Assembly (NCBI GenBank): GCA_037355855.1
Contig: CM074762.1
Location: 1,860,001 to 1,924,000, forward strand
DNA length: 64,000 nucleotides
Source: Pseudo-nitzschia pungens
Lineage: Eukaryota; Bacillariophyta; Bacillariophyceae; Bacillariales; Bacillariaceae
Direction of reading: 5' to 3'
The position numbers and the translations under genes are program-made. Every line of letters begins with the position of its first letter. Position 1 is the stretch's first letter. The notes beneath the pieces were generated by a model, which made no database searches, was not told where the DNA came from, and was given only the letters and a program-made list of their open reading frames with translations. Positions 20,768-58,147 of this stretch are shown here, in pieces.

Positions 20768-22103
20768 TTTCTTTATCGTTATCGCTCCGGTTTCGGAGGC
20801 ACTTGCACGGAACAAATAATAATAAGAGATAACAATTACAGTAAGTAAGTATTTATTTTGGAAACACAAAACGAATTAACATGGATTGTGCGATTCCAAA
20901 TCGAACGACGTCATCATTGGCGGAAGGATGGAAGAGTTTTTGCTCTTGCTCATACGATTTTAAGACTTGCGCGCAACACGCCGATGAAATAGCGGAGCAA
21001 TCAGTCAGTCACCCAATGTGATAACTTACTAAGGTCTTACTACATCCCCTGAGTTTAATAGCCTCCATGCACGTATCAAGAACGTACTTTGATGACCTAC
21101 CGGTACCAGGGTAACCTTACCCGGTACTTAAGATACGTAAGTACTCGTATTACAAAGTACTATGAGGAGTGGGCCTATGAGTCAGATAGTAGTCATACCT
21201 ATAAAATTTATTACAACATAATACATACCAACCTTGTGTTAGAAATTACGAAGTAAGTTCCTTCAGTTTGATCAATCCGTACATCCGGGTTTTTTTGACA
21301 CTTATACCTATACATCCGGGTTTCTTTTACATTTATAATTCTACATCCGGTTTTTTTGGACAGTTATATATCCGGGTTTCTTTTACATTTATAATTCTAC
21401 ATCCGGGTTTTTTTACACTTATACATCCGGTTTTCAGCATCATATTTACGGTAGAAGGTCAGACATAGTGTGGAGGTGTATGGCTGGGGAGAAAGGAATA
21501 GGTTTGTTGATCCGCTCCCACAGGGAACAGCACTCCTCATTGTCGTCGGCTTGGTGTTGGCCAAGGGACAATGAGGTGAGCAGATGGGGAAGGCATCGTC
21601 CCGCACCTCCGTGCCCGGTAGCGGCTGCGTCCCTTGTGCGGGCACCGCATTGTGCCCGTCTACAGTACGCGCGCTGTCGGCCCTCTCGTGACACTTACCT
21701 ACCTACCATTGGGACCTTCCTCACATACGTCGTAGTGCTCGTCACGGCGCGCGCGGCAAGTTCACAGGTGGTGCGCGTGGAGGTGCGGGCGTGTCCCCCA
21801 CCCGCATCCTGCAGTTGCGGTGACCTGTGTCTTGCCCAACAGCAACGCTTTTGCCGTTGACATTATTTGGGTTGGAGCTCCAAGCCTCTCGATCCTCGAT
21901 GAACCTTCGACAATGAGAAAATTGTACGGTAATCTTAAGGTTTACCGTAAGGTTACTGTGCTGCATCGGTTGATACAAGCACTCGAATGAGTCAGTCAGT
22001 CCCAATACTCGTACAACATACCGTAATTACCGTAACTCGGAACAGCGGTGTCAAAAAGTAGTAAGATTTACAGTAAGGTTACTTCGTAATAGTGTGACAT
22101 GTC
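20768..22103. other. Divergent intergenic interval
   Basis: 1.3 kb between the 5' ends of the patatin and ARL6IP4-like genes. It contains a tandem CATCCGGGTTT repeat (21281-21435), a GC-rich patch (21,470-21,860) with no convincing gene, and clusters of the dispersed GTAAGGTTA-type motif at 21,100-21,160 and 21,920-22,090. Confidence 0.5.
21281..21435 (+). repeat. Tandem CATCCGG(G/T)TTTTTT repeat
   Basis: Six copies of a 24-31 nt unit containing CATCCGGGTTTCTTTTACA or close variants. Two adjacent units share an identical TTTCTTTTACATTTATAA stretch. Non-coding. Confidence 0.85.
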
Positions 22104-29213: not shown

Positions 29214-30640
29214 TCACGTGGATATGTTTGGGTCTTGATAACCGTTATAGCCCTTGTTGCTCTCTTGGTCTTGGACTGCTGATTGCGTCTGGATTTGAAG
29301 TTCTTGGTTCGTTGAAATACACCCGAGGCCTTCTGAGCAACATGTAGTACAGCAGGTACAGCTCGTTTTTCTACAGTCAGCCCAGAATTCTTTCAAGGGA
29401 ACCGGTCTCAGCGCATCGCATATAACCGCAGGAATCCCCTGGCATTTGTCGGCTTGTTCGAAAGTTATTCGAATCAAGATACAACAATTCCAGGAGGGAC
29501 AAGCCAGAGATTGAGTCTGGCACTTGACCACTTAGGTTGTTGTCAAAAACGCTTAGTCCCGTGAGTTTGGTGAGGAAGCCAATCTCGGTGGGCAGGGTCC
29601 CGTAGAATTTATTGGAGCCCAGATTAAGCACCTTCAATTTGGAGGAGAGAGGTGAGCTCTCGCCCCAGACATGAGAAGGTAGAGTTGTCTCGAAGGAATT
29701 TCCGTAAAGATCTAGATGAACCAATGATTGCATATTTTGTAGTCCCGAAAGGAAATTGTTTTTGTTGTTACCCCTTGTTTTCCTTGTACCAAAAATGTTG
29801 TCGACTGATACATTTTTCTCCTCGTTGTAGTCATTGCTATTCCATTCCTTTGTATAGTGAACCAATTGGTTTGAAGACAGATCCAAGTATTCTAATCTCG
29901 TCAAACCCGTTACATGTACTGGGATGCTTCCCGTCAGCGCATTGTTCGGCAATCGTATTATTCGGAGGTTGGTCAACAGGTAGATTTCGTCCGGAATACT
30001 CCCAGTCAAACCGTTATGGCGCAAATCCAACTCTTCATACATATTACCAATATTGCTTCTGCCGCTCTCATCTGTGGAATTATCTGTGGAATTGGCAGTG
30101 CACACATCTAGCGACGCACTACTGCTGTACCACTTACATTCATCGCTATCAGTAAGCCACGACGAAGATGTCGTCCAAGTGCTGTTGTTTGGATTGGTCG
30201 CGAAATACAATGTGGCCAATGCATATCGTTGCAGCAGTCGAGACTCGGAAAAACCCTCATTGATCGGATCCAACAACCAGGAGAGAGCAGCAAATTGAGG
30301 GGATTTGGGGTCTTTCAGAGAGACACCTCCATCAGGAGCTTTTGCAAAAATCAAATCAATTAGAGCCTTCTTAGTCTCCTCGATACCTGAGGATGGGGCG
30401 GATGTAGGAATTCGTGTCGATGGCGACTGAGGGCTTGAGGTTGGCGGTTGGGAAATCGGAGACAGAGTTGTGATGACAGGTGGCAAAGTTGGTGGGGAGG
30501 GTGCGGGTGAAGAAGATGTATTCTCGTCATCCTCTTTCAGAAGTAGGAGCGCTGTTGCTACGCCGCCACCGATTAGACCTAGTAAGAGTATGCAACAAAT
30601 GATGGAGACCACAAACCATTTACGTCTCCTCCTGGGAGAT
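29214..30640 (-). other. LRR ectodomain, membrane span and Cys-rich cap of the giant protein
   Basis: From the membrane span (30,618-30,540) the frame runs through a Pro/Ser/Thr stalk, a cap region with several Asn-X-Thr/Ser sites and about six leucine-rich repeats (YEELDLRHNGLTGSIP, RLEYLDLSSNQL, SLVHLDLYGNSFETTLP, KLKVLNLGSNKFYGTLP, KLTGLSVFDNNLSGQVP, LLELLYLDSNNF). At 29,467 an extra C puts the original frame on a path to a stop at 29,377. The +1 frame carries KCQGIPAVICDAL, EFWADCRKTSCTCCTTCC and ends at 29,214. Such a Cys-rich end is common in diatom LRR proteins, so the +1 frame is the likely ancestral C-terminus. Confidence 0.75.
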
Positions 30641-33600
30641 TTAGATTGGTCCTGTAAGGAATGTATGCTCGGTATGTGATCAGGCGGTTCGTCGAAGTAA
30701 TCTCCCATTGGCACATCGTTATCCTCGATGCTGCTGCTGCTGCTGCTGCTGCTGCTATAGTCACTCATAATACTACCAATTCTGGGACTGTCGTCATTGC
30801 TGCTCTCCTGTTTAGAGACACTTCGTCCCGAATTCGAAACTGATGGAACAAATTCAGACTTTGAATACCCTGATTCCAGATCCAAGTCATCGTCAGGATT
30901 TGAACTTTTTGAAAAAGAGTCCTCAGTACCAACAGACTCAGCGGTGCTGAAATTTCGTTCACTATTTCCATCTTCGGTATTGATCAGACCCTCTTCCATC
31001 TTATTAGGGACATCAAATGATGGTGGAACATTCGGTTGTAAATGCTTTCTTGTTGGGACAACCCATGGTAATTCTTCATCTATGATACTGACAGGAGCTG
31101 TGCTTTGAACCACCGCTTCCTTGAATGACCTTGTTTGCTCCTCTTCAGATTTTACGTCAAGTATTGGAATACCCCATGATGACAAAAGCAACTCCTGGTT
31201 GAAGCCTTTGAACTTCTCTCCATCAGAGGGTGTTCTGTCCTCTTTTTTGGGTTGTCCGTTACTCATTATTTTTGGCAATGCATGCAGCTGTTGTGCCACA
31301 AAAGAAATCGGTTGCTTGGAAGACTGTGTTTGGGTCCTTCTCGTCACATCAGTCGACACTTGATCGGATTCCTTTGCAGACAAAGAAGGCTTAGGAAACA
31401 CTTCGAAACGTTCTTTTCGATGAACATAACTGTACTTTCTATCTTTTTCCTTTTGCAGAAGTGAAGGTGGCCCCCAGTTTGACGTAACCGAAGAATCGTC
31501 TGGCATTCGATTTACATACATAAAGCCCGGTTTTCGAATGTCGGGAACAACTATTTGTGATTGTTTTGGTTTCTGGGAACGACGCAAATACTCCTCAGGA
31601 GGGTCTGGCTTGTTATGCAGCGAGTCAACGTCTATCCCTGATCTGGGGATGTGCGCAAAAGGGTCCAAATCAAACGGTGGTGGTGCCCATGATGCATGTC
31701 CTTTCTCGATATCTTCGACGGCGATAACTTGTTCTCCAACCTTTTCCGAACTCTGCATAGACTGACTGTGCAAAGAGTCCCAAGCTTTCAAAGCATTGAA
31801 TCCCTTTTGCACTTGTTCACTCATGAGCTCCTTTTGCTCGCTACCATCGCTATTTTCTTTTGAACCATTGGAAATCAGTCTTTGTCCACCCATCGATTGC
31901 CCGCCCATCGACTCGTTCTTTCGAACCGCTGAGGCCCGTGTTTCCGTCGTCTTAGATTTTGTTGAGAGATCTCGACTGCTACGGCTACCTGACTTCGACT
32001 TCCCACTTGAAATTAGAACGACATTTTGTTCCTCTTCCGGGATGGATTTTCTTTCAATCGAGTCTTGCTTTCGAACTTCAATTTTTTGTTCACTAGGCGA
32101 AATTGATACTTTCTCAATATTTGAAATGATCGACTCGGTCCCAGAAGAGACATCAATCTCATTCGGTATCTCTCCAGCGTCCTCGTCGATCTGGGAAGTC
32201 AAGGAATTCAGAACAGTTGGTATCAAGATATCGTCGCTTGCTTCATTCTTTTCTTTCGTATGGGTTTTGACTATAATTTTCGATCCTGAGTCGACAAGCA
32301 CTCTTGGGATAGGTCGCCCGCTTTTACTCGAAGATGAAGGAGACAACAGTCTTTGTTTTCTGCCATCAGCCGAAACATGTCTTTGCTTGACGTCAGGCGA
32401 AACCAATGCAGATGGATGGTCGTCGCTTTCTTTCAAGCTGAATACATCGCCATCCACCAAGGACTCGGACGATGAAACGGACGCTGAATTCGACGATGAG
32501 TGGGATGGCGAATCATTGGAATGCGTCTCGCTTGAAAATGACGCTGAAGAAAAAGATGCAGGGGGAGGATCTTGAGGATGCACAATGGTTTTGTCATGTG
32601 GGCTTTTTGCACTCAAAAGCGGTCCCTCTATAACTTGTTGTCCCGTCCTAACTTTATCAGAAAAAAGTTTCGTTTTACTAGACGTCTCCTCCGGATCCTT
32701 TGGATTACTTTGTTGAATTGTTGGGATAAGACTGGAAAAATGTTCTTGATTGTCTTGGACATTTGGCTCGTGCTGTGCTTTTATATGCCGTGGCGACGCC
32801 TGCATTTGATTTGTTTTACCATTGTTGTTCTTCGTGTTTAGTCCTGTATTCGTTCGTAATCTTCTTCGCTCTCTCCTGAACTTTTCAAGATCTGCCATCT
32901 CTTCTGCATCGAGTTTCTCTCCAACTTGATGTCGACTGAAAAGATCAAGTTTATAAATCCGATCTTCGTCAACACTTTCGCCGCTTTCCTCTTTGTCTAA
33001 AAGATTGCTCAATTCGTCCATTTCTGTGATTGACAACATCGATTCTTTCGAGATGCTAATATCACCAAGGGGAGAAGCTGAAGTTTCTTCACTCGATGGG
33101 ACACCAAAATCGAGCGCATTCCGTGTGGCGATAGCATGATCCTTCAGTTGTTTCTTTATGGCTTTTCTTTCTGCTTCCTCTTCAGCTCTCTTGCTTTCAA
33201 CCAATCGATTCATATTGCGAAGCCTTTCTTCTTCCAATTCTAGCTTTTTCCGCTCGGCCTCCTTTGCAACCCTGCTTTCTTCTGCAAGCAGGGCTTCCTT
33301 CTCGAGTTTTTTCCGCATTCCTTGATTTGCTAGCATCTTCTTCTCAACGATTCGAGTGTCTTCGAGGACCCTTTTTCGTTCAGCCTCAATCTTCATTTGC
33401 TCTTGTGCGAGAATACTTTCTGTCGCTAATCGTAACTTTTCTGCCTCCTCCTTTTCACGTCGATCTTTTTCCTCTTTCGCTCTTTTCAACTCCAATTCCT
33501 TGATGAGCTGAACTTCCTTCGAGATACGTGCCTCTTCTTCATTTTTTTTTTTTTTAGCCAGTTTTGCAAGTTTTTTCTCTTCAGCAAGCAATCTTTTCGT

Positions 33601-36600
33601 GTTTTCTAGCCTTTCTCTTTCGACATCGGTTTTCTGTTGCTCCAGTTCTTTCATGTTTTGAATCTTCTCAGCTAGGCGACTGTCAGTTTCAAGTTTCTTC
33701 TGAACGGTAAGTTTGTCCTCTTTCGCAACCGAGCTTTCTACAGGTAGACGCCTTTCGTCGTGGAGTTCTTTAGAGGCAAGAGTGTGCTCTTTATCGAGCG
33801 TTTTTCTGCTTTCCTCGTTTGCTGTCGCTTTCTTTTTCGCGCCTTGAATTTTTTTATCTTTATTCTTATTGTGCATCGTTACTCTTTTGGGCATCATCCC
33901 CTCGACTTTTGGTACCGATTCGTCGAAATACGAGTCGGGTGGGTTCGACGTAGGGTCTGGTGAGAAATATTGTCCGCCCTCTTCTCCTTTCGAGTATTCT
34001 GCATCAAATGGTGCTGTCGCAGTTGGTTTACTTTCCTCATCTTCGGAAATCTTTGAATCTACATTATTGAAGTCACTTTCAGTTTCAAAAGGGATTGCAT
34101 CGTGGAAAATTTGACCGTAAAAATCATCCTCATCAATGCCATTAGCCTCAGTGGGGTTACTATTCTGTTTGAAATCATCATTATCTGAGAAGTTTTCATC
34201 TTTTTCTCGATTTCTTCCTCTTTGTTTTTTTCGCCTTGCCTTGAAGTCATACAAATCTACAAGCTCGTCATTGTCGAGACTTTCACCGATTTCCCATCGA
34301 CTGAGAAGATCTAGCTCGTATATACGATCCTCATCGACACTTTCACCATTTTCTTCCTTATCAAGGAGCTCATTCAATTCGTCAATTTCACCAGCAGAAA
34401 GCATTGATTGTCTTGAACTTAAACTATCGTCGGTCGATGCGGCAGAAGGTGCTTCTTCGGACTTTTTGTCTGTCGTATCAAATTGTTCATATTCGCTGCG
34501 TTTTTTCTTTTCAGGAGTTTCAAAAAGCATCGAGTCAGAACGCTTCTCTCGCGATTGATAACTTGTCAGTGAGCGTTCATCATGTGGTGGAGCACTAAAC
34601 CTGTGGGTCCTTGAATGAATCTTATCAGAATACGAATGGTAATCAGCGGTAACGGAATCTGGATCAGAGACGTTCTGATTGCTCTCACTTCTCCTACTAT
34701 CGCGCCTTCTATGAGAGCTCTGATTGGAATGGCAACTTGCATAATGACTACTCCCATCGTCTGCAACGACTCGACTTGATACTATGTCTCTCAAATCGAA
34801 TGGATTCCTGGACTGGTCTTCTGGGTGAACATAGGACATGGCTTCCAAGGATTCAGATTTCCTTCGTGAATGATCTGACCAACTTGGGCTCCCCATGGCC
34901 TCCGAAGATTTCTGCTGTAAAACGTCACTAAATGCTGATGACTCAGTGTATTCATCTCCGTTCTCCCCAACACTTATCTCTTTTGAGGATTCGGATCTAG
35001 TACTTGAATGGTCAGACCAACTTGAGCCCTGAACAGTCTTCGGAGGTTGGTGTGATATCATACCACTGAATGCTGAAGATTCTGTGTGCTCATTTCCTTC
35101 TTTGTGTTCTGTCGCATATGTCTCTTCTGGTGGTTTGGATCTGCTTCTTGAATGGTTGGACCAACTTGGGCTGCCAAAAGTATCTGAATGTTTGTTTGAC
35201 ATTGCATCACCACCAAATGCTGAAGCTTCCACTGTGTGCCCATCTTCTTCTTCTTTGTGTTCCATCACATATCTCTCTTCCGATGATTCGGATCTGCTAC
35301 TTGAGTGATCTGACCAACTTGGGCTACCAAAACTATCTGAAGGTTTGCTTGACATTGCATCACCACCAAATGCTGATGACTCAGTGTGTTCATCTTCTTC
35401 TTTGTGTTCCGTTACATGTCTCTCTCCTGATGATTTGGATCTGCTTCTTGAGTGATCTGACCAACTTGGGCTCTCCAAAGTCTTTGAAGGTTGTTGTGAT
35501 ATGATACCACCACCAAATGTCGAAGATTCTGAGTACTCGTCTACTTCTTCTTTGTGTTCCGTCACGTGTCTCTCTCCTGATGATTCAGGTCTACTGCTTG
35601 AATGGTCAGACCAACTTGAGCTCCCAAAAGTCTTGAGAGGTTTTTGTGGTATCATACCAACACCAAATGTTGAAAACTCTGCGTACTCGTCCTCTTCTTC
35701 TTTGTGTTCCGTCACATATCTCTCTCCCGATGATTCGGATCTGCTGCTTGAATGATTTGTTGAGAAACTTGAGATCCCAAAAGTCTTTGAAGGTTTCCTT
35801 TGTACACTGGCACCAAATGCTGATGACTTTGTGTGTTCATCTCCTTCTTTGTGTTCTGTCACATATCGCTCTCCGGATGATTCAGATCTGCTTCTTGAAT
35901 GATCTGACCAACTTGAGCTCCCAAAAGTCTTTGAAGGTTTCCTTCTTACACTGGAACCAAATGATGATGACGTTGTGTGTTCACCTCCTTCTTTGTGTTG
36001 CCTCACATATCTCTCTCCCAATGATTCGGATCTGCTTCTTGAATGATCTGACCAACTTAGGCTGCCAAAAGTCTCTACAGATTTGTCTGACATTACATCA
36101 CTACCAAATGCTGAAGATTCTCTGTAATCGTCTTCGTCTCCTTTGTCTTCTGTCTCATATCTCTCTTTTGATGATTCGGATCTGCTTCTTGAATGGTCGG
36201 ACCAACTTGGGCTACCAAACGTATCTGAAGGTTTGTTTGACATTATATCACCACCAAGTGCTGAAGATTCTGTGTGCTCATCATCATCTTCTTTGTGTTC
36301 CGTTACATATCTCTCTTCCAATGATTCGAATCTGCTTCTTGAATGATCTGACCAACTTGGGCTGCCAAAAGTATCTGAAGGTTTGTTTGACATTATCTCA
36401 ATACTAAATACTGAAGATTCTCTGTAATTGTCTTCATCTCCTTTGTCTTCTGTTGCATATCTCTTTTCCAATGATTCAGATCTGCTTCTTGGGTGATCTG
36501 ACCAACTTTGGCTACCAAAAGTATGGGAAAGTTTTTTTGACATTACATCACCACCACCAAATGCTGAAGATTCTGTGTGCTCATCATCATCTTCTTCTTT

Positions 36601-39600
36601 GTGTTCCACGACATATTTCCCTACTGAGGACTTGGATCTACTGCTGGAATGGTCGGACCAACTTGCTTTCTCAGAAGTCTTCAAAGGTTTTTTTGATGTC
36701 ATACCATCGAATGCTACTGATTCTGGGTGCTTACCATCATCTTCTTCATGTTGCAGTAAGAATTTCTCTACTGAGGACTTGGATCTACTGCCTGAATGGT
36801 CAGGCCAACTCGGGCTCCCAACTGTCTTGAAAGGTTTTCGTGATGTCATACCATCGAATCCCAATGAAATGCCAACTGTTTCAGAGGGTTCTTTCGATAC
36901 CCCACCATCAAATGTAGACGATTCCGCGTGTTCTTCTTCTTTGATGACATGTATCTCCCCAGAAAACTCAGATCTGCTACTTGACCAATCTGACAAGCTT
37001 GAGCTGCCAAGATTCTGTGAAGGTTTCTTTGATACCTTACGATCAACCTTGGATGCTTTCTCGTTTCCTTTTTCTCTGTGTTTTGCAACACGCCTACCTC
37101 CCGTGGGTTCAGACCTACTACTTGAATGGTCTGACCAACTTGAGCTGCCAAGATTCTTTGAAGGTTTCCTTGATACCTTACGATCAACCTTGGATGCTTT
37201 CCCGTGTCCTTCTTTTTCTTCGTGTTTTGCAACACGCCTTCCTCCCGTGGATTGAGACCTACTGCTTGAATGGTCTGATAAACTTGAGCTACCAAGATTC
37301 TTCAAAGATTTCATTGATGCCTCTCGACCAACCTTGGATGCTTTTTTGTGTTCGTCTGTTTGTTCGTGTTTTGCAAAACGCCTATCTCCCGTGGATTGAG
37401 ACCTACTGCTTGAATGGTCAGACCAACTTGAGCTGCCAAGATTCTTTGAAGGTTTCCTTGATATCTTACGATCAACCTTGGATGCTTTTTTGTGTTCGTC
37501 TGTTTGTTCGTGTTCTGCAACACGGCTTCCTCCCAAAAATTCAACACTGCTTCCTGAATGGTCTGGCAAACCTGAGCTGTCAACTTTCTTCGAAGCACTA
37601 AAATTGAATGCTGGTGATTCAGACTGGTTATCTCCTTGCATGTCACGCCTTTCTCCAGAAGACTCAGATCCGCTGCTTGAATGGTCTGACCAACTTGAGC
37701 CACCAAGATTCTTCAAAGATTTCATTGATGCCTCTCGACCAACCTTGGATGCTTTTTTGTGTCCTTCTGTTTGTTCGTGTTCTGCGAACACGCCTTCCCC
37801 CCATGGATTTAGAACTGCTGCCTTGAATGGTCAGACCAACTTGAGCTGCCAACATTCTTTATAGATTTCTTTGATACCTTTCGACCAACCTTGGATGCTT
37901 TCTTGTGTCCTTCTGTATGTTACGTGTTCTGCAACACGCCTTCCCCCCATGGATTTAGAACTGCTGCCTGAATGGTCAGACCAACTTGAGCTGCCAACAT
38001 TCTTTGTAAGGTTTAATTTCTGCACTTAACATTGAATGCTGGTGATTCAGATTGGTTACCTTCTTGCATGTCAAGTATTTCTCCAGATGACTCAGATCCG
38101 CTGCTTAGACCAATCTGACAAACTTGAACTACCAACAATCTTTGAAGGTTTAATTTGTGCACTACCACCGAATGCAGATAACTCGATATGTTCGTCCTCG
38201 TCTTTAATGTCATATCTCTCTTCTAAGGATCCAGAGGTACTGCGTGGATGGTCAGACCAACTTGAGCTATCGACAGTTTTGGAAGGTTTGTACGATACCT
38301 TGCCACCAAATGTAGGCAACATGGTTTGTTCACCCTCTTCGTCCATGATATATATCTGTTGTGAGGAATCAGAACTGTTCTTTGAATGGTCTGACAAACT
38401 TGAGCTATTGACACTTTTGGAAGATCTCTTTGAGCCCTTGCGACCCCCTTTCGACACTATCTTGTGTTCGTCTTCTTCTCTCGCTGCTGACGTGTCTTCT
38501 GGGAATTCCAACAGAATCTGCGAAGGGCTACTCGTCTCGGAAGGTCTTGATGCCTTGCGACCCAATTTAGATGTTTCCTCAAGTTCAGAGGGCTCTTGTC
38601 CAGGGAGGTTTCCACGCTCCACATGATCACTTGGAGAGCTACCAGAGCTTCTGGAACTGTCATACTTTGTACTACCCTCGTCGAATTCACCCCTACGGTC
38701 TTGATTGACACTTGACGAACGTTCTAAGTTGCTTGATTGGGTGAAATCGTCTGGCAATCGACCTTCTATTTCTGATTCACGGCATTCAAATTCATGCAAA
38801 GCATTCAACTCGCTTTCTGTCAGCTCTGCCCCGGACTGATGTCGTGAAAGGAGCTCTAATGTAGCTAAACGATCGGCATCGAATTCTGCTCCTCTGTTTT
38901 TGGCATCGATCAGGTCCAAAAGCTCACTTTGATGAGCCCGGTGTTTCTTTCTCGCATTTTGAAATTTCTTCAAATCTTTAAGATCCTCCGTATCAAATGA
39001 TGACACAGAACCTGTTCTGCCATTTATCAAACAACTCCAAGTTGCGCAATCGATCTTCAGGATATGGCTCGCCATTATCCTGCAAGTCGATCAAATGATC
39101 TAATTCCTCTAGTTCCCATGTTGAAAGGCTCGAGAAGCTGCCTTCGTGTATGTTTATCTGTACATTGTTCGCTCCGAGGTCATGTCCAGACGGGTCGCCG
39201 GTTGCTACAGAAGGACTTTTGGATTTTGGTGCCTGTTCTCTGCGTCCCGATGCTGTGGCAAAAATTGGTTCCTGCGACATATCCACGTGAGGATCAGGCA
39301 TTACATCAGATCCCAGCGCGATTTTCTCAAGAGCTCCGGAAACATTCTTTAGGTCCTCGACGTTCTCGTCCTGATACATGCGGTTTGAAGTATTCTCTGA
39401 TGATGGTATTGATGGCTCAGATATATTCTCGGGAGGATCTAACAAAAGACCGTGCCTTAGACCAATTTCAGTATTTTTGTCTTCCTCGTCGGCTTCTGAT
39501 GGGCTCAGATCTTCCAAATGAGCAGGTAGGCTGGAAGTATGGTATTCGTTCGATTTCAATACTGCTGGAAATAATGACTTGTCCGATATATTCTCAGGAG

Positions 39601-42600
39601 GATCCAACAAAACGTTGGAACGCAGAGGAATTTCTAGTTCAGTTTTGTCATCTTTTGGCTTCTTAAGATCCTCAAGATGAGCGGGAAGGCTTGAGATGCC
39701 GTCTTTTTTCGCTATAGGTGCCGAAGCTGATGGTTTTTGGTCCATCTCCTCTGGAGAATCCTCCGGAGAATCAGACAAACCGCCAGATTTGACAGGAACC
39801 TCAGCATCTCCTTTATCATCTTCTGGATTTCTTTGAATTTTTAGATCAGAGTTCGTTGCATCATTTGTTTCCGGAATTCCAAATAATCTCTGTTTTTCCA
39901 ATCCTGCGCCATACTCGATCTGATCTCTTCTCCTTGCCCTGAATTTGTTCAGATTACTCATCTCTTTCTCGGTAAGCCTGTCGCCATTTTGCCATCGATC
40001 GTACAAATCCAATTCATAAAGCCGATCTTCGTCAAATTCTTCCCCATTTTCTTGGCAATCTAACAAGTGGTCTAGCTCCCTAACTTCTTGTGATGAGAGG
40101 CTGTAGGAATCACTGACGCTTAGTAGCAATCGCTGTCTTCTTGAGGTTTCTGTCTCATCAGATGTATTGGGAGATGAGCTTGTGTTTTCCTGCACGGTAC
40201 TCGTTGATTCCATTCCCTGGAAGTTTGTGCTGGGCTCCACTTCTCTTGCACCCTGTACAGTGTTGACAATGTCATTGTTCAATCCTGGGTCGCTCGGTGT
40301 GAAAGAATTTTCTGTGTCATACGTTAAATGTGTCGATTGTGTTTCATTTCGAGACTGGTCTTCGTGTTCATGCGACTGTGCTTCTGTTTGAATCACCTGC
40401 ATTGAGAGTTCAGCAATGTTTCCAACTTCCTCGAATGTGTTCAGAGAGAGTTCCTCATCATCGACTGAGCTTACGTCAGATGTGCGTACAATGTAACTGA
40501 AAGTATCGTTTGGACTATCACTTCCAGAAGACTGTGAGCCTGAATTGTCATTACGTGGTAGGTCATGATAACTCGCGATTTCTTTTACATTGGTCACGAT
40601 GTTTCTAGCTATTTCACTGCCAGAATCTCTTCTAATGGAGTCATTTTCGGAGATATTCTCTAGTGAACGGGTCGATGATTCTTGGCCTGCAGTGTAGTCC
40701 CCTTCTCGACTGAGAACTGCGTTCTGGACAAGATTCCGAGCTACTGCACTGAGAGATTCATTGTCTACCGACAGTTTTGATGTGGAGGCTGATCCTCCTT
40801 CATCATCCTCCGTTTCCGAATTAACTGTATTTCTGGAGCTCAACGGTAAGATTGCGTTATTAATGAGCTTCCGAGCTGTCTCACGTACATATTCGCTTTC
40901 CACCGAAGTCGCTGGAGTACAGGTGGAGTCTTCTTCGGCTCCCTCAACATTGCGATGCGGTGACTTTCTTTCATTCTCTATATCACCTGTGTCTGCATAA
41001 TCCATAGCGGCGTTTACGATGTTTCTCGCGATAGCAGCAACATTGCTACTTTGCTCGGGTGTTGATGATGCTTGACGTAGATTGTTTGCATTTTTCACCA
41101 TCTGCTTCCTCTTGAGAAGGCATCGTATCATCCAAGTTTCTATCCAAAATTGAAGTTCCGATTGCCTTACTCAAAATATTACGAGCAATACCACCAATAT
41201 CTTCACTCTTCACGGAAGAATCACGCGTCGAAACAGAATGATCTTCCTCTTCCTTTTTTTCCATAGGTGCATTTTCGTACGTGCCAAGGCTAGACCCTTC
41301 ATCAGCGCTTCCGTCGAAAAGTGAGGCATCGATCAGCTTTGTTCAAAATACTTCGAGGGACATCCCCAATAGATTCGCTCTGAAAATTCATCATCGAAGA
41401 ATCATATGCCATACCAGACTCTTCGCATTCGTCGTCAACTTCATCTGTTTCACCTCCCAGTTTTGGCACTATTTTGCTCGAATCAGACGGATTTGTCATG
41501 TAAGCAGACAAATCGTCTTCGTCAGAGGCCTGAACTGCAGCGTTTACGATGCTGTGGGCGATCTTACCGACATCATCACTCCTTACGGAGAAATTTGATG
41601 TGGCGACAGACTCTTCGTAAATGCTGTCGTTTTCAGTTTCTATTCCAGCTCCCAAATCAACACTGACTTTCGAACTCTCTTCTTCATGCTTACTCTCGTC
41701 GGGGACGTAACCTATCATCATGTATTTCCGAAGGCTCAAATGCTTTTAACAAAATATTTCGGGCAATATGAGTGACATCGTCATCTTTCGTGTGCTCATT
41801 TGCGTCATAAGTTGCTGTTCGACTAGAGTGTTCATTATCTGACGCTCCGGACTCGATGTTTGCGATATCGCTTGATTCTTCCCCTTTCTCGTCGATGACT
41901 TCAAGGGCCGAAAAATTTTCATCTACTAGAGCGGTTCCAGCAGCTTGCTCAATAATGTTTTGGACAATATCATTTATATCGTTGGAGCTGGAAGCGACGA
42001 TCGCAATTGTGTCTGAGTCGTCATCACATCTCTCACTCTCATGAGAGAGAGAATCTTCGTCTTCGTCTCCACTATCGGGGGATCCTCGTCTGTCAAGTAA
42101 ACTATTTCCAAAGATTTTACCACGGCCGTCATTCCCAGATGTCGGAGAAGAAGTGTCAGTGATCCATGCAGAAGATTGACTGCTAGTTGATTCATATATG
42201 CTTCCATCTTCTTCGTCATCAAAATCATCTTTGTACGTCTCCGATGTGTCAACATGGGGAATGCTTCGTGCGTCACTCTCTCCTGCGGACGACGTCTCAT
42301 CACCTCTATTATACCCCATTGTAGTTGCTCTGGTGACAAGATTTAATGCGATACGTCGAAAATCCTCATTTTCCCCGGATGTTCTCATTTGATCGACTGT
42401 GCCCTCCGGTTGACTATTCGATTCATCATCTGAGGCAATTATTGAACCCTGGGACCCACTTACCATGGAGTGCGCACTCTCATTGTTTGCTCTCCTTGCA
42501 ACTCCCTGACCCTAGACCAATCTGATACTCTCTAGCACCATTGCTTCTATCAGAATCTAATCCATAGTCTCCCCGCTCGAGGTTTTGCGTGGATGATGAA

Positions 42601-45600
42601 TGGATATATCCACTTTCCTCTTCATCACTCGACAGCACTTCTTCTTCCTCGCTATACCCCCCAGTTGACTCGCTGTCATCAGTGTCTTCTTCGGAAGAAT
42701 AAGTGCTTGGTTGAATCAAATTGGTTTCCAGCATTTGGGATTCCTGCGTATCACTTCTTGCATCATCAGAAGAGTAATACGATGAATCGTCGTCCTCGTT
42801 TACTGGTACTGACGAATGGAAAGTAATCGAAGAATCCATGTGCGTGGATGAACCGATGAGGGAGCTTCTCATATTCGTTGATTCAGTTGGTTCTTTACTT
42901 GTGTTTTCCATCGGTTCCGCGCTAGTGTTTCTCAATTCACTGGATTCGGTTGGTTCGGCTGTCGTTGTTGATAACATCTCAACCATGCGTGTACTAAAAC
43001 TTTTTGATGTGCTGCTACCGCTGCGTGAGGTAGAGGTATCTTGATTTACTTTCGAGAATGGTTGCTTATGTTGTGAAATAATGTCAAAATCTGATTCATG
43101 AGCCTCGTCACAGGTAGGTAGCGAGGTTGTACTGGAAATTACATTCGCTGGCTGCAAAGTCATCTCATTTTCCTCACTGGGTGACTTGTGAATCGCATGA
43201 ACATTTTCCTCTCTTCTCAAATTTTCATCACGCCTTTCGTCAGTTTCGGAGTTTTCGTCATCATAATACTTTGCATCATCACTTTTCCCTTCTTGCTGTT
43301 GAGCATTCCGGTCTACACCATGAGTCATTTGTCTGATGTGTGCAGTGTCGATGCTAAACGCGAGAGCTAGAATTTCCAAATGAAGCCCTAGTAGTCGCAA
43401 TTGAATGATTAGATGTCATCGAGTATTGTAGGGTGCTATCACTGGTGACTATCATGATTTTGATGTTCATAGTCTTCCTCGTCGTGGTCTTCGAAAACTT
43501 GAGCCTCCCCGCTGCTAGGTGTGGAACCCAGCTCCCCACTAAGCATTTTTTCCACTTTCAATGACTGTCCTCCACGAGAGGAAGACGACCCTTTCAATGA
43601 CCCTGATTGGGACTTTTTGTGATCACTTGGCGGTTCTGATAAGTCTCTCATGGGGGTTGAAAAACGTTCATCATTTGCATTGCCATCTTCGCTTTGTTCA
43701 AATTTAGTCGACTGCTCGTTCTCGATTCCGCTCTTCTTCTTTGCTTCATCGTCTAGACGATTGGGAGGCGAGTATCTAGCACTTCGGTCCACAGAGCCCT
43801 CCCTCTCTTCGTTGATGATGTTTTTTTCTGCTTCACTGTCGTCATCTTTGTATCTACCGTCGCTGCCGTTTGCGTAGTCAGAGTCATTAGAGTCGTCGGA
43901 AATATTATCAGAGACTTCGTCGTCAGTGGACCGGTCGGAAGAAGAACCAGAATGCCTGTTCGGTGACGAACGCCCCGGACTACTATCTTGTGCAGTCAAG
44001 TATCCTTTCGGAACGGAGGATGACGAAACACGGTTTGACGCGTCGATTGCTTTTCTCTCAGCTTCATAGTGTAGACGTTGAGGCTTTTGCGGGCTATCTG
44101 TATCTTCCGAATCTTCGTCTTCTGATCGAGGTGATGAAGTACGCTTGGAGGGTGATTTTATTCGCCCTCTTCGTGGTTGCTCGGTGTCTTCTTCGGAGGA
44201 GGGTGGAGAAGGTACGCTTCGCCGTGTTGCAGCTTCCAGTCGACTCCGAAGTTCATTTGTCCTATTTGAAAACTGCTCAGATGATCCAGCACCAGCACCA
44301 GCAGACGACGACAAGGACGACGACGACGACGACGATTTAGAGGGCGATGACACATGCCGGGAGGGATTACTGAGATTTCGACTCATCTCGTGTGGCAGTG
44401 CTTGAATTAGAGGAAAATGTGGGGCGTTTGGGAGTATAGAATCTTCATGGACTCTGTTGTCGTCACTTTTCTGTTCGTCTAGATTGATAGTTGAAGATGT
44501 CAACATAGGTTGCTCTCGAAGAATAGCTGTCACATTACGACGGGATGCTGTAGGGTAGGACGCCTACCGAAGTCGATGATTCGGAAAATTCAGATTCGGA
44601 ATTCCATCTGGTCTCACCCAACTCTGTGGAAGATTCTCCACCCGTATGATCACTATCGTCATCGCCGTCATCGCTGTCGTCGATGTAGTCGCTGTGGTCA
44701 CTACCGTCACTACCGTCACTACCGTCACTGTCGTCACTACCGTCACTACCGTCACTGTCGTCACTGTCGTCGCTGTCGTCGCCGTCGTCGCCGTCGTCGC
44801 TGTCATCGTCGGCGATGGCAATAGCAGATTTGGTGGTTGCTCGTCGCTCCGTCGATTCTTCCTCGAATGAAGCCATCAAATCGTTCCCAAGTGGCTTATT
44901 CTGATTGATTTTCTCAAGAGCCTCATTCATTTTGAGAACGCCGACATCTGCCGGTAAATGAAAAGTCGACGTGTTGAAAATCGATGTTTCTACGGCTTCA
45001 GCGATGGTATCAAATTCATCGTCCATATCACCGTCTTCCTCATCGTCCTCGCTGAACGATTCAGGCTGCTGGGATCTGAACCGTCTTCGAGACGAAAAAG
45101 ACAATCGATCTATTAATCCGCTATCTTCCTCAGTTGCCATCGTCATGGTGATCGCTATCGCTGCCATGATCTTTGCAATCTTCGGGACCATCATTTTCAC
45201 TTTCATCATTTTCATTCACTTCGGCATATTCTTCATTTTCGGAAGCAAAAATTGTTGTTCTATCTAATTCAAGCTGTTGCTGTGCTTGTCGCCAAGTAAC
45301 TTTGGTAAGATCCTCCTCTGTAAGAAGTCGGTGAGCTCAGGGAGAATTCATTAATCGGTGAGCTCAAGTCAGAGTTGGTCGTATATAATCCTCCATCGAC
45401 TGCTTCAATTTGCTCGCCTGCCTCCTCCTCATCTTCTTCGAAAAACGGCATGTTGTGTTCAACTCCTGTCCGATTCAAGTATTCAATTTCTTTTTCCTCG
45501 ACTTCGTTGTTGGTTTCATGTTCATCATCCATTGAGGCTTCATGGTAGAGTTCCTTGTATGTGTCTCCTATTCGGTCCATAAATTCTATTTGTTCCTCTT

Positions 45601-48182
45601 CAACGTTCTTCATACCACTGTTGATCTCACTCTCACTGAACATTCCGTCACTATCTTTCTCAAGTTTGGTTCGTATTCGGTCTGTCAATCTTTGATGGAC
45701 AAAATCCTCATGCTCGTTCTCATCGCCGCTGTCGTGCTCGCTAGACTCGGAGTCGTACTCTTCACCGTACTTGGCCCTCATTTTGTCCATAAAATTGATT
45801 TCTTCTGTTGTGACGTCGTCGTCATCATCACAAGCGTCCGTGCTAGTCATGTCACCATCATAATCTTCATTGTATTTGTTTTCTGTTGGATAGATGAATT
45901 CTATTTCTTCTTCCTATGACGTGGTCACCCCCGTCATCCTCATCCTCATCATCATAAGACCCCACAGTTTCATCATCACTGTCATCATCCCTGAAGTCTT
46001 TAGTGACACCCTTACTTGACACATTATCATCATCACCACCATCACTATCATCTTTGTATTTTGGTTTTAATTGGTTCATGAAGTCAAGTTCCTTTACCAA
46101 AATACCGTCGTTATCGCTGTCGTCTTCACTGGACGTGTCATCGCCATTATTCCTATTGGAATTAATCTCATCATTGTTTTTTCGCTTTCATTTGGTTCAT
46201 TGATTTCATTTCATCTACCGGGATGTCTTTGTTATCGCTGTCATCCTTGAGAGACACTGCTATCATTATCACTACCATCATCTTCATATTTTCGGTTTCA
46301 TTTGGTTTATGAATGTCATCTCATCCACTGCAGCGCGTTCATCATCACTGCCATCCTTGCTGGACATTCCATCATCGTCATTGTAATCTTTGTATTGTGC
46401 TTTCATTTGGTTCATGAATTTAATTGCTTCTTCTATGGCATCTTCATCTTCATCTTCATCGTCACCGTCATCATCATCATCATCATCATCACTGGATGTG
46501 ACATCATCGCTATCCTCATCTTTGTATTTTGCTTTTAATTTGTTCCATAAAGTCAAGTTCATCTACCATGCCATTATTGTTGTCACTATCATCCTTCACT
46601 GGACATGCCATCGCCAGTATCATCATCATCATGCATATTCATTTGTTTCACAAAGTCAAGTTCATCTACCATGGTATCATTGTTGTCATTATCATCCTCA
46701 CTGGACATTTCATTGCCAGTATTATCATCATGATGCATATGTTGTGCTTTCGTTTGGTTCATGAATTTCATTGCTTCTTTTGTAGCATCTTCATCACTGT
46801 CATCACCATCACTAGATATGACATCATCGCTACCCTCATCTTTGTATTTTGCTTTCATTTGTTCTATAAAGGCAAGTTCATCTACCATGGCATCATTGTT
46901 GTCACTATCATCCTCACTGGATATGCCATCGCCAGTATTATCATCATCATACATATATTGTGCTTTCATTTGGTTCATGAATTTTGTTGCTTCTTCTGTG
47001 GCATCTTCATCATTACTGTCATCATCATCATCATCATCATCACTGGATGTGACATCATCGCTATCTTCATCTTTGTACCTTTGCTTTCATCTGCTCCATA
47101 AATTTAAGTTCGGCTACCGCAGTGCTTTTATTCTTGGTGGACGTTGCATCATCAATATTGCCATCCTTATGTTGTGCTTTCATTTGGTTCATGAATTTCA
47201 TTTCTCCTTCTTCGACATATTCATCATCACTGTCATCATCACTGGACATGTCGTCATCCTCATCTCTGTATTTCGTTCCGACTCGGGCAGCCAGTTCTAT
47301 TGCTTGTTTTGTGATGCTAAGGCCGCCATCCTTATCATTTTTGCTGGAGCGACCATACGCTTTGACGGAAGTTTCCTCTTCGTTGCTTTTATCGCTTTCG
47401 CCTGGGTCTGACGTATCATTGAATTTGTACTCGTCGTCCTGTAACGACAAGTAGTCCCGGACTCCTGCTTTTTCTGTGTCTACAGACGTGTCGATCACCG
47501 ACCCCTTCGTTGTTTCGTCCTCGTTGTCGTTACTGCTGAAATAGTCAGCACCGACCCCGCTCTCCGTCCCCACGATATGGCTTTCGGATAGTTCTTGCTT
47601 TAGCTGTTGATTGGAAGCTTTTCTTCTAGCAATGGCGGCGGCTAGAAATTCGTTCTCGAGGTCTTCACCCGGCTTTGGCACAGATGGAATAGAGTCTTCA
47701 AATGGAGGGAACAGATTGTCGTCGAAGTCGCCCATCGACCTCGATCCGCCGCCGGCGTCCTCTAGTACCGTGTTGTCTGTATCGATAGAATCAAAACGAT
47801 GCAATGGAGCGGAACTATCTTCGTCTTCGTTGTCGTCTTCTCGATCGTGAGCATGCCCATAGCCACGATGATCGTCGCTACCCCTGCTGTCCCTGCCATC
47901 CCCGTCGTCCCCGTCGTCGCCGCTTGAATTATGGGCTGTTGTAGCTGCTGCGGCCCGGGTCAATAGATTCAACGCCAAGTTTCGAATGTCATCGTCTACC
48001 GTCCTGCTGGCAGCTGCTCTTCTTCTTCTTCTTCTTCTCCTTCTTCTTCTTCTCTCTTCCTCATCGGTGTTGTAGCTACCTCCCGAACCGATGCCAGTAC
48101 TACTGCCACTCCCACTTTCACAATCCGAATCGTCTTCCTCGCTGCTCGAGAATTCATTCCCGCTGAATTTTGTGCTACTCAT
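29214..48182 (-). CDS. Giant (about 6,300 codons) one-pass membrane protein with LRR ectodomain and many +1 frame changes
   Basis: Starts at ATG 48182 and ends at 29214. Order: acidic N-terminus with poly-Arg; about 15 acidic modules (FMNQMKAQYKD-like); a Ser/Asp tract; about 10 IARNI(V/L)xxA modules; five ELDxLLDxxExGE...DEDRLYxLDL modules; about 25 SSSWSDHSSSRSESSGE modules; a Lys/Glu coiled coil near 33.1-33.75 kb; a basic stop and one membrane span (WFVVSIICCILLLGLIGGGV) at 30,540-30,618; a Pro/Ser/Thr stalk; and leucine-rich repeats (LTGSIPDEIYLLTNLRIIRL) with a Cys-rich cap (SCTCCTTCC). The frame changes 24 times, always +1, near 47.08, 46.59, 46.54, 46.29, 46.25, 46.18, 45.92, 45.28, 45.14, 44.54, 43.44, 43.37, 42.49, 41.72, 41.33, 41.09, 39.02, 38.11, 38.03, 38.00, 37.92, 37.82, 37.79 and 29.47 kb. 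Function unknown; the topology suggests a surface receptor or adhesin with a huge cytosolic part. Whether it is translated is open. Confidence 0.7.
32870..34440 (-). repeat. Two ELD/DEDRIY modules flanking a coiled coil
   Basis: Copies at about 34,390-34,230 (ELNELLDKEENGESVDEDRIY) and 33,030-32,870 (ELSNLLDKEESGESVDEDR) each run into LDL(L/F)SR and a basic FxxxRR end. Between them (about 33,140-33,750) is a 200-residue Lys/Glu-rich coiled coil. Three more copies lie at 40.1, 39.1 and 38.9 kb. Confidence 0.8.
34750..38430 (-). repeat. About 25 tandem ~150-bp coding repeats (SSSWSDHSSSRSESSGE units)
   Basis: Each unit is close to 150 bp (49-50 codons): a Ser-rich SWSDHSxSRSESSGE core, then an acidic stretch (RYVTEHKEEDEHTESSAF) and a KPSxTFG linker. 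Neighbouring units at 35.0-36.6 kb are very alike at DNA level, which implies recent unequal exchange. Units at the 5' end (37.8-38.1 kb) are more diverged and contain six of the +1 frame changes in about 320 bp. Confidence 0.9.
38780..40110 (-). repeat. Three ELD/DEDRLY modules
   Basis: Copies at about 40,100-39,950 (ELDHLLDCQENGEEFDEDR), 39,110-38,980 (ELDHLIDLQDNGEPYPEDR) and 38,930-38,780 (ELLDLIDAKNRGAEFDADR). Each is followed by LxLxxRWQxGxxL and an acidic helix ending in a basic patch. A frame change falls inside the second copy, between KWQN and the DTEDLKDLKKF helix. Confidence 0.8.
40580..42390 (-). repeat. About ten IARNI(V/L)xxA modules
   Basis: A short helix motif recurs every 50-70 codons: IALNLVTRAT, IVQNIIEQAA, IARNILLKAF, IAHSIVNAAV, VPRSILNKAD, IARNILSKAI, IARNIVNAAM, TARKLINNAI, VARNLVQNAV and IARNIVTNVK. 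It is set in acidic Ser-rich linkers. One further copy (LALNLLTRAA) lies in the N-terminal segment near 47.97 kb, which ties the segments together as one gene. Confidence 0.8.
44640..44820 (-). repeat. Ser/Asp/Gly triplet tract
   Basis: Nearly pure GAC/AGC/GGC-type codons giving a DDSDGSDGSDDSDGSD run of about 55 residues. This is simple-sequence coding DNA inside the giant gene. Confidence 0.85.
45440..47210 (-). repeat. About 15 acidic FMNQMKAxYKD modules
   Basis: A short amphipathic motif recurs every 35-45 codons, separated by Asp/Ser-rich spacers: MKFMNQMKAQHKD, LKFMEQMKAK, LAFIEQMKAKYKD, IKFMNQMKAQYKD, LDFMNQLKPKYKD, INFMDKMRAKYGE, IEFMDRIGDTYKE and others. Seven of the frame changes lie in this array, and in several a sister copy shows exactly one base less. 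Confidence 0.85.
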
Positions 48183-49556
48183 AGTCGGTTTCTCTGTTCT
48201 GTTCTATTCTATTGTATTCTAAGATTTCTATTTCGGTCAGTCTTCCTCCAACTTGTTGATGGTGTTTGTCTTACTTGTCTGTTGCTTAGCTGTAGGTGAA
48301 TGATAGACCAACTCGACCTTCCAAGACTTGCCAACGTACGCTGGTTCCGAGTAAGTTACCAAACAAACCGAACTGGAAGCTTTGTTTTCACAACACATTC
48401 GTTTCGGTTCACGTTCCCGGAAAATCTGGCAGAGCATCAATCTGTCACTGTCACGCCTTCCTTCACAAACTTGGCCCAACTTTTGTCTTCGATCACGACC
48501 GGAAAATCGTACGTAAGGTACAGTACAAGTTTACGATACATGGAGTATCGGGGAATTTAGACAAATGGACGAATGCTTGTACATATCATGGGTATGTTGC
48601 AAACGGTATGTTACGAATCTCAAACCAAGACTCGAACGATGCAAAAATCTATTCCACTGTGCGTTCCGCGCGTTGAGTCGTATCGAACAGAATTGCCCCC
48701 AAAAATAAAGAGATCAATCCATTCGTATTTTCGGGCAATGAAATGTAAGACTTACTGGTAGGTCCTACCCAAACGTTTTCCTCATTCACAAGGCCTAAAA
48801 AGGGCAATTCTTTTGATGAATGGTCTATAGTCGACACAACATTTCAGCATTAGTAAGATACGTATCGGTACAATGATTGCTATTCGATTTTTGTAGTGTG
48901 TTGTACCGGTAATTTGTGATTACTACGGTAAGGGGAAAGGTACAGAAACACGTGACACACAGCCGAGACTAAACACACGGAATCGAAAATGTCAAAAGCG
49001 ATACGAAGGAGTAAAACGTCCGACAAGCAAATGCGCCGGAATGCGCCCCGGCGCATTTGATTGTCGACAGGCTTGTCACTCGGTAACTTACTTTTATCTC
49101 AAAATCGATACCAGTCCTACGGTATTCTAACTTTTCTTCATCGATTCAATCAAAAAACAGTTGTCGCAAAATTTGTCATTATTTCTGTACTTTTCTACAT
49201 CAAGTGCATGTTCATCACTTGCTGGTGGAGTGCAAGCTGCGTATTTACTGGTTTTACTCAACTTCTACAGCAGGTACTGAACTGCACTCTTCATTCAGAT
49301 TGATATTTATTGTCTATGAGAGGGACGAAGAGTAACGTACTACGGTATGAGTATTAGCAACAGTAACTGATGGCTAAGCGACAACTGTGTGTATAAAAAC
49401 CAACATTGGATATTGCTATTCCTTCCTGACTCTTCCATCTCGAACCAAGTCATTGGATTCAGTGAAAGAAGTACAAACTTATTGATGGGACCACACGGGA
49501 ACAAGACAAAGCAATTTACTCTTGGATTCATATTTTGGAAAAATACTTTCCGACCT
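48183..49556. other. Gene-free interval: promoter side of the giant gene
   Basis: 1.37 kb between the 5' end of the giant gene and the 3' end of CAND1. It contains a strong hairpin (49021-49066) and several TACCGGTA/GTAAGGT-type motifs. Frames on either strand have no recognisable product. Confidence 0.5.
49021..49066. repeat. Hairpin with 19-bp arms
   Basis: 49021-49039 pairs with 49048-49066 with a single mismatch (core CAAATGCGCCGG / CCGGCGCATTTG) around an 8-nt loop. It is GC-rich in the stem and stands about 840 bp upstream of the giant gene. It could be a cruciform regulatory site or a transposon remnant. Confidence 0.9.
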
Positions 49557-56284: not shown

Positions 56285-58147
56285 TCACCTTCTGCAACAA
56301 CCTGATTGTGGTCTCTTTTTTAATCGCCTGACCGCGCCAAACCCCATTACGGAACTCCCACTCGTATCGATTTGGTTGTCAAAAGTCGACACTTTGCTCG
56401 GGTGATACCCGCATTCTTCATCGTCTTGTTCGTCTTGTTTTCGAGCTTTTCGTTCAACCCGCAAGCGCTTCCTCTGATCCCGGAGTGCCTGTGACACTTT
56501 GTCGTAGAGTTCCTTGGGATCGTCCATGTCTACAAAGAGCCATGTTCGCTTGTCGACTTTGAGGAAACGAAATCCATACTCCGGCGATCGAGCGGTTTCG
56601 ATGATGCTGTGGACGAATTCTTTCATCGAGGAAACGTCGTCCTCGCACCTTGCAATTTTCTCCTCGCGATTGATTTCCATAACCTTGACCATCTGCCGAA
56701 ACTCCAGGTTCGTATGATTGTACTGGGATCTAGTTCCGAGGATGACACAGTTCACGTCTGGACACTCAAGACCAGGCGATGGTAGTGAGGTTTCATATGA
56801 TGTGATTCTTTCGTGTCCTCGTTTCTTTTTCTGGAGTACACTCTGCTGACGTTCTTCCTGGTCTTGATGTGCTTGGTACCATACCTTTCTACTCATCTCA
56901 ATTGCTTTTCGCGCGGCAATAAATTTGCCAATATTCTTGGTTTTGATTTGTCCGCTGGTCGTGATCGGAACGTCGTCCGGAGGTATGCCAAAGGACTTGA
57001 GACTGTAAACACATTCGATCTGTGATCCCCCGTGAAAACGCAAGATTTTACGGTCCTCTTTCCCCAGTAGAAACAAGATCAATGAACTCCCAATTACGTA
57101 AATGAACGTATCGGGACCTGTGTAATGAATCGCCGATGTGCGCAGTGGGCACCCTTCAGAGAACTTGTGTAAAAATTCTCGTTCGTTGAGGCCTCCAAGA
57201 GATTTGTGTCTTGTCATCTGCAATGCCATTCCCGTCTCACCGAATGGTTTCCTTCCAGGATCGATTCGGGGGGATACCAAACTAACGAGCCCCAGCTTTT
57301 GGGTCGTTTCGTCCTCAGAGCAAACGTCATGCAGGTATATGGAAACTCTGTACTTTTCGCGGACGTCAAAAGTCCGGTCTTCGCGTCCCGAAAAGGCAAA
57401 TATTCTTCGTCCAGCGCGATCTCGACTTGGCAGCAACTGCATTTGTCCCTTTTTCAGATACCGGAGTTCTCTTTTGGTCAAATCCTCTAGCATCAATGGG
57501 CGTTTCAGAGCAACATCGCCAAACAACCCATACATCAGGTCGAGGCACCGAAAATATCGCAGAGTAGCTTTTTCGATATCAAAAAAGGATGCTCTCAAGA
57601 ATTTGAGCAAAAACGAGTTACGGCGAATATAGCAAACTTCATCGGATTCACTCTCCTTGTTGATGGCGAACGAAATACCTCGTTTATACGCGGCCTTCGT
57701 GATGGGAGGAACAATGCTGTCACCGTTATCGAGATCTTCGTCAAGAGTTCGGTCGATGTATTCTTTCAAAGACTGTATTTTATTGTCGATAAATGCCGGA
57801 GTTTCTGTGATTGCACGTTTGCTTCGGACGCCGTGTATCTCGTTGGTGATATCTTCTCGCTCTTGAGGATCCATTTCATACAATTCTTTTGCCCAAAGTT
57901 TTTCCATTGATGCTCGTACTGCTAACGATGCCAGATTTTTTGCCTGGTCTGATACGAAATCATCCTTGGTTCCATCCCCCTCCTCGGAACTCGTTCTGCC
58001 ATGATGGTTCATATCGTTGTTGTTCTCGTGGTACTCTTCATCTGACCACCACAGCTTTGCCATTTTTCTCGTTAATTCGTCTACGCCAACCATTTCGTTG
58101 TCCGTTGAATTTCCCTCGCTCTGTTTTGGAGTGTTACTGAACAACAT
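56285..58147 (-). CDS. CRAL-TRIO + DUF6824-type domain protein, intronless paralogue
   Basis: 620 aa from the ATG at 58147 (the frame opens at GTG 25 codons earlier). Same order as the 5818-8023 gene: a variable N-terminus, a helical segment with the shared EIHGVRSKRAI / IHGVSTCAV motif, a CRAL-TRIO core (LLKFLRASFFDIEKATLRYF, LPSRDRAGRRIFAF, FIYVIGSSLILFLLGKED) and FGIPPDDVPITTSGQIKTK. Then comes a DUF6824-like C-terminus (NCVILGTRSQYNHTNLEFRQ, TWLFVDMDDPKELYDKVSQAL). The NDVLxxxGG start of that domain is altered to NCVILGTRS, so this copy is more diverged there. There is no intron where the other copy has one. Lipid binding is inferred from the fold; the cellular role is unknown. Confidence 0.8.
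   Translation of the reverse strand: MLFSNTPKQSEGNSTDNEMVGVDELTRKMAKLWWSDEEYHENNNDMNHHGRTSSEEGDGTKDDFVSDQAKNLASLAVRASMEKLWAKELYEMDPQEREDITNEIHGVRSKRAITETPAFIDNKIQSLKEYIDRTLDEDLDNGDSIVPPITKAAYKRGISFAINKESESDEVCYIRRNSFLLKFLRASFFDIEKATLRYFRCLDLMYGLFGDVALKRPLMLEDLTKRELRYLKKGQMQLLPSRDRAGRRIFAFSGREDRTFDVREKYRVSIYLHDVCSEDETTQKLGLVSLVSPRIDPGRKPFGETGMALQMTRHKSLGGLNEREFLHKFSEGCPLRTSAIHYTGPDTFIYVIGSSLILFLLGKEDRKILRFHGGSQIECVYSLKSFGIPPDDVPITTSGQIKTKNIGKFIAARKAIEMSRKVWYQAHQDQEERQQSVLQKKKRGHERITSYETSLPSPGLECPDVNCVILGTRSQYNHTNLEFRQMVKVMEINREEKIARCEDDVSSMKEFVHSIIETARSPEYGFRFLKVDKRTWLFVDMDDPKELYDKVSQALRDQRKRLRVERKARKQDEQDDEECGYHPSKVSTFDNQIDTSGSSVMGFGAVRRLKKRPQSGCCRR

Follow-up and report, generated by a model that had tools for sequence, protein, structure and literature searches.

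Reading many genes of the Euplotes octocarinatus genome requires +1 steps, according to the available text of PMC4759687, and the part of PMC3101222 that deals with the mitochondrial cox1 and cob genes of Perkinsus describes a reading frame with several forward steps. A single assembly can likewise have many of its conserved genes broken by single-base insertions and deletions, as described in the accessible part of the Kastor paper (PMC12007338). Here we analyzed a giant gene of the diatom Pseudo-nitzschia pungens, whose reading frame as assembled changes 24 times, always by +1. The gene lies in the window, that is, the whole stretch of 64,000 nucleotides (nt) under study (C5:1860001-1924000, on contig C5), which belongs to a genome of 66,883,101 bases in 28 contigs. 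The closest named relatives found here likewise point to a pennate diatom of the Bacillariaceae. Judging from the sequence, we consider with a probability of about 0.88 that the 24 extra bases stem from single-base errors in the assembly consensus, which are insertion-only and patchy, and not from a property of the gene or of its translation. The gene would then be unbroken in the living cell.

The frame changes were counted with a codon-usage dynamic program, for which the usage was taken from CAND1 and the long clean frame, and in which one-base and two-base steps cost equally. At penalties 8-13, the program found 19 events in the giant gene, 16 of them single +1 steps and three two-base steps, and at penalty 6 it found 23. 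The overlaps between open reading frames (ORFs) at the 19 steps span 10-128 nt. The DNA of sister repeats splits the two-base steps near 46322, 38024, and 37823 (the last at penalty 6 only) into two +1 each and reveals one more +1 near 37921. A paralogue with leucine-rich repeats at C5:927751 shows that the last change is a +1 near 29460, not the two-base step that the program placed at 29382. Codon usage, sister repeats, and the paralogue together give a total of 24 frame changes, all +1, between ATG 48182 and 29214, with one coding signal throughout. Both this total and these coordinates agree with the original prediction, but 23 of the 24 changes fall within ~47087-37786. These 23 sites are packed into 9.3 kilobases (kb) and are followed by 8.3 kb without any before the last one (P = 1e-5 for such a gap if the sites were uniform); the long tandem repeats at 34988-37595, within this site-free tract, are clean. 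A run of 24 of one sign would arise by chance with a probability of 6e-8, which bears out the earlier statement that it would be very improbable. Sister repeats had also been described as one base shorter at many breaks, and indeed a sister repeat or the paralogue places 13 of the 24 sites, the remaining 11 being placed by ORF overlap and codon usage. At the lowest penalty (6) only, the program also adds a +1 step followed by a +2 step within the Arg-rich stretch (48053-48001); the N-terminal poly-Arg stretch (48001-48059, reverse strand) is poly-Glu in another frame.

It had been stated that no other gene in the window has a frame change. That was true of the window junctions inspected (6640, 11370, 14940, 17940, 22489, 26638, 28307, and 51285), which correspond to introns or intron-like stretches, gene ends, low-complexity sequence, or unclear cases, but it proved false for the genome as a whole. 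Outside the giant gene, homology supports 17 intron-free +1 changes (a TPR gene has four of them, a "GHSAAAGHGN" gene one, chaperonins four, a kinesin one, and HSP70-like genes seven), with none that is clearly -1 and one that is ambiguous (+2 or -1). The same fault thus recurs in unrelated genes, as would be expected of an assembly error. Insertion-biased long-read error in a gap-filled region had been one of the options proposed, beside programmed +1 frameshifting, mRNA base deletion, and decay; insertion-only error is the best-supported option, but not within one region, as homology-supported +1 changes occur on contigs C2, C3, C4, C5, C11, and C12.

The TPR gene, at C5:1987.4 kb, carries four +1 and no -1 changes relative to a metagenome homologue (73% identity) and a Pseudo-nitzschia multiseries homologue (67%). 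Three of the four lie within 135 nt, and the alignment contains no in-frame stop. In the GHSAAAGHGN gene, one +1 is supported by homologue P0067; its alignment also calls one -1 step, which adjoins a 46-codon unaligned stretch taken to be an intron. The predicted proteins of relatives are unbroken across the sites of these two genes, which were the two compared.

We also surveyed four Pfam families genome-wide, obtaining 31 matches for kinesin, 20 for Cpn60_TCP1, 34 for HSP70, and 17 for AMP-binding (14 of 30 candidates scored). The matches total 76.7 kb, with overlaps counted twice, and 39 pairs of adjoining matches lie no more than 2 kb apart. At the junctions too small to be introns, 12 of 13 steps are +1 when taken modulo three, the other being +2 or -1; the 26 intron-sized junctions show frame steps of 0, 1, and 2 in 13, 8, and 5 cases, respectively. 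Chaperonins contribute four of the +1 steps, kinesin one, HSP70 seven, and AMP-binding none. Five of these 12 clear events were read in the DNA (four chaperonins and one kinesin), and the seven HSP70 events, five of them in one gene, are derived from match coordinates modulo three only. In searches of the Protein Data Bank, the broken genes match CCT theta, Cpn60, CCT delta, CCT zeta, and kinesins, and conserved residues flank the break on either side. An HSP70-like gene at C5:5852 kb carries five +1 changes and the ambiguous step in 1.6 kb. Separately, the HSP70 genes at C5:5971903, C5:5986854, and C7:5076679 have identical scores and are perhaps recent copies, and C7 also holds three equal 107-codon HSP70 fragments.

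The sequence around the extra bases was then compared at the 23 sites for which a reference peptide is at hand (13 in the giant gene, four in the TPR gene, one in the GHSAAAGHGN gene, four in chaperonins, and one in the kinesin), with every possible position of the extra base scored. The 11 giant-gene sites lacking such a peptide and the seven HSP70 events were excluded. No shared motif was found in the 11-mers at these sites (1.28 bits, versus 1.29 at random positions, P = 0.49), nor is one fixed codon used, as 19 different codons occur across the 23 sites. A frame-0 stop lies within one codon at four of the 23, all of them in the giant gene and all TGA; TGA is frequent among the frame-0 stops of the giant-gene sites in general. 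The extra base had been said to repeat its neighbor often, and it can be read as a copy of the neighbor at 14 of the 23 sites, which is not beyond chance (~10 expected, P = 0.07). At the other nine, the best-scoring position does not duplicate a neighbor. The original prediction leaned toward slippage or sequencing error, and of this pair insertion-only error is the better supported, as plain slippage does not account for these nine sites. A consensus error would fit the recurrence of +1 changes in conserved genes across several contigs, the lack of a motif, the clean tracts, and the unbroken relatives.

The extra bases could instead be present in the DNA, with the frame restored at expression by programmed or tolerated +1 frameshifting throughout the genome or by the deletion of single bases from mRNA. 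Such restoration would be in line with the exclusive sign of the 41 homology- or frame-supported events and with the position of the sites in conserved genes whose downstream frames are still conserved. It is difficult to reconcile with sites that share no motif or codon, are not coupled to stops, come as close together as ~20 nt, and are unbroken in relatives of the TPR and GHSAAAGHGN genes, so that we regard it as highly unlikely, and programmed frameshifting as an improbable explanation. What would be required is a diatom nuclear genome carrying motif-free extra bases and a sign-specific frame correction, by decoding or by deletion of mRNA bases, that works without a slippery site, unlike Euplotes or Perkinsus; we give this very little credence. 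If real, it would amount to a large collection of unsignaled frame corrections and, as far as our limited literature search goes, to the first case in diatom nuclear genes. Real extra bases left by polymerase slippage or another insertion-only mutation, neutral or tolerated, would account for the 14 sites readable as copied neighbors. This also seems highly improbable, since the copying is not above chance, nine sites cannot be so read, the tandem repeats at 34988-37595 are clean, and conserved genes would be broken.

A decaying pseudogene that gathered frameshifts, for which the failure of one 712-residue piece of the giant protein to find a close homologue might speak, would be expected to show insertions and deletions of both signs together with nonsense changes. 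All 24 changes here have one sign, the DNA between them has no in-frame stops in the coding pieces, leaving ~6,300 codons free of nonsense changes besides the frame changes, and chaperonins and a kinesin follow the same pattern; decay is hence even less credible than restoration or slippage. Introns of a length of 1 modulo 3 are the least probable explanation of all. Although the nearby junctions in CAND1 and the symporter gene are introns, sister repeats and homologues align across the sites with one base to spare, and the introns of the survey give mixed frame steps.

Within the consensus-error reading, two causes would share the field at about even odds. In the first, which we favor, heterozygous tracts of a diploid genome (diploidy being assumed) would have led the consensus step to write both alleles of a single-nucleotide polymorphism in series, which would yield insertions alone, each of a single base and without a motif, and would leave homozygous tracts of the genome clean. 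We asked at the 23 sites, with three tolerances, if synonymous two-allele pairs arise from the extra base more often than from random insertions. With a tolerance of 3, it does so at 18 of the 23 sites versus 11.7 expected (P = 0.005), a result that is suggestive at one setting and not proof. In the other half, long-read insertion errors would have been left uncorrected in patches, unconnected with alleles, which on its own we rate at somewhat less than an even chance. Single-pass PacBio reads lean to insertions, and single, patchy, motif-free bases are compatible with this cause, as is the strict allele test, which does not beat random insertion. Nevertheless, it would need a nearly pure insertion bias to leave no clear deletion, and neighbor duplication is not above chance.

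A number of results weigh against the consensus-error reading or against alleles as its cause. The share of two-allele pairs is close to expectation with a tolerance of 0 (11 of 23 versus 9.4, P = 0.31) and not clearly above it with a tolerance of 5 (18 of 23 versus 14.2, P = 0.067), and the synonymous transition pairs number 8 versus 5.3 (P = 0.14) and 11 versus 7.1 (P = 0.058). No clear deletion occurs among the 41 events (upper 95% limit, 7%), and we know of no read type with an error sign as pure as this. The insertions and deletions of the nanopore draft are mostly false deletions in the portion of PMC12007338 available to us, which means that the usual error profile leaves the sign unexplained, and the accessible parts of PMC9713900, PMC8672642, and PMC7265644 contain nothing on insertion bias that settles it. 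Codon usage was also scanned for abrupt frame changes in 200 kb around the window. Inside the giant gene, the lax scan gave 15 one-base and 3 two-base steps, and outside it 24 one-base versus 26 two-base steps, without sign bias, gene ends, introns, and low-complexity sequence being included. The stricter scan gave 8 one-base versus 3 two-base steps outside the gene, where a sign bias is not clear; its two-base steps are a CAND1 intron, low-complexity sequence, and one near 117104. With the strictest scan, 3 one-base and 2 two-base steps were left outside the gene, and both two-base steps are introns. The CAND1 and sodium:solute symporter junctions are introns, seen as GT-AG stretches, and the kelch junction is intron-like. 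Beyond the giant gene, codon usage alone has no clear sign bias, and it is therefore the homology-supported events that carry the genome-wide claim. The copies of non-coding repeats in 264 kb around the locus are too few to fix the direction of base changes.

By eye and codon usage, +1-like changes were also noted at C5:1961.8, 1971.5, 1977.0, 1977.1, 1978.2, and 1982.3 kb, which are outside all counts; the stricter codon-usage program reads the two near 1977 kb together as a single -1 step.

If the extra bases are an artefact, the damage to conserved genes in this contiguous assembly is sign-specific and patchy, and gene predictors would turn the breaks into false introns, split genes, or pseudogenes. 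The one-sign pattern would then offer a simple check for other assemblies.

Table 1 Features of the giant gene and its +1 frame changes, in window positions.
Feature	Position	Strand	Description
Giant gene as assembled	29214..48182	-	18,969 nt, ~6,300 codons; ATG 48182, stop 29214; 24 +1 frame changes
Broken tract	37786..47087	-	All +1 changes but the last (23 of 24)
Six +1 changes in acidic repeats	46173..47087	-	Near 47075, 46594, 46530, 46290, 46250, and 46173; each placed by a sister repeat
Eleven +1 changes	38995..45914	-	Near 45914, 45331, 45138, 44561, 43444, 43362, 42482, 41713, 41331, 41069, and 39022; placed only from overlapping ORFs and codon usage
Six +1 changes in 145-nt repeats	37786..38106	-	Near 38103, 38024, 38008, 37922, 37823, and 37787; each placed by a sister repeat
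Unbroken frame of 2,817 codons	29377..37830	-	Long tandem repeats, hydrophobic stretch, leucine-rich repeats; clean apart from the last +1 (near 29460), inside its end
Last +1 change, end of the C-terminal leucine-rich repeats	29456..29466	-	Placed by the paralogue at C5:927751
C-terminal frame, Cys-rich end matching the paralogue	29217..29531	-	Translation compared with the paralogue at C5:927751

The giant protein, of ~6,300 residues, has acidic and Ser-rich repeats, a hydrophobic stretch read off the translation, and C-terminal leucine-rich repeats, the last being recognized by LRR_8 at 46.7 bits (curated cut-off, 27). From this domain layout, we would guess that it is a surface protein. 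The paralogue at C5:927751, in the same genome, likewise has a hydrophobic stretch, leucine-rich repeats, and a C-terminal "CTCCTTCC" end; it lies inside an open frame of 1,305 codons, whereas the giant gene spans ~6,300 codons and has long repeats of acidic and Ser-rich sequence. No relatives of the giant gene were found with the 712-residue piece, in a search that scored the 7,986 candidates sharing most words and in which full-length relatives of a cut piece could not be returned. A segment of the giant protein (38993-41131) recurs downstream in the same gene (32581-34470, both on the reverse strand) with 33-37% identity, representing an old internal repeat. A DNA search with 38000-48200 did not reveal a second haplotype copy in the assembly, giving only 18 matches of 32-65 bases (simple repeats and very common words were skipped).

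Elsewhere in the window, an open frame of 755 residues with NDC10_II and GCR1_C domains (59789-62056, forward strand) presumably resembles a Crypton-type mobile element, and its flank and end stretches recur ~90 kb away, near window positions -30189 to -28223 (C5:1829.8-1831.8 kb). Two genes on the reverse strand (5818-6591 and 56285-58222) match DUF6824, the second just under the curated cut-off. Beyond the window, C5:1935790-1939462 (window positions 75790-79462) contains direct repeats, 338 and 278 nt long, whose copies show 100% identity and perhaps mark a recent mobile element, and a related inverted copy is found at 21468-21841 of the window (97.6%).

In Euplotes octocarinatus, the shift takes place at a slippery stop, mostly AAA-TAR (PMC4759687, in the text available), whereas the sites here are mostly away from stops and have no motif. 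A frameshifting of the Euplotes type, at WWW-TAR stops, does not describe sites of which only four in 23 have a stop within one codon. Likewise, the non-triplet decoding of Perkinsus has its site at every AGG and CCC codon in the part of PMC3101222 concerned, whereas the 19 codons at our 23 sites belong to a nuclear-type genome and exclude one fixed codon. The nanopore draft described in the accessible part of PMC12007338 differs in its sign, false deletions prevailing there and no clear deletion occurring among our 41 events; its insertion errors are reported to have no link with particular homopolymers.

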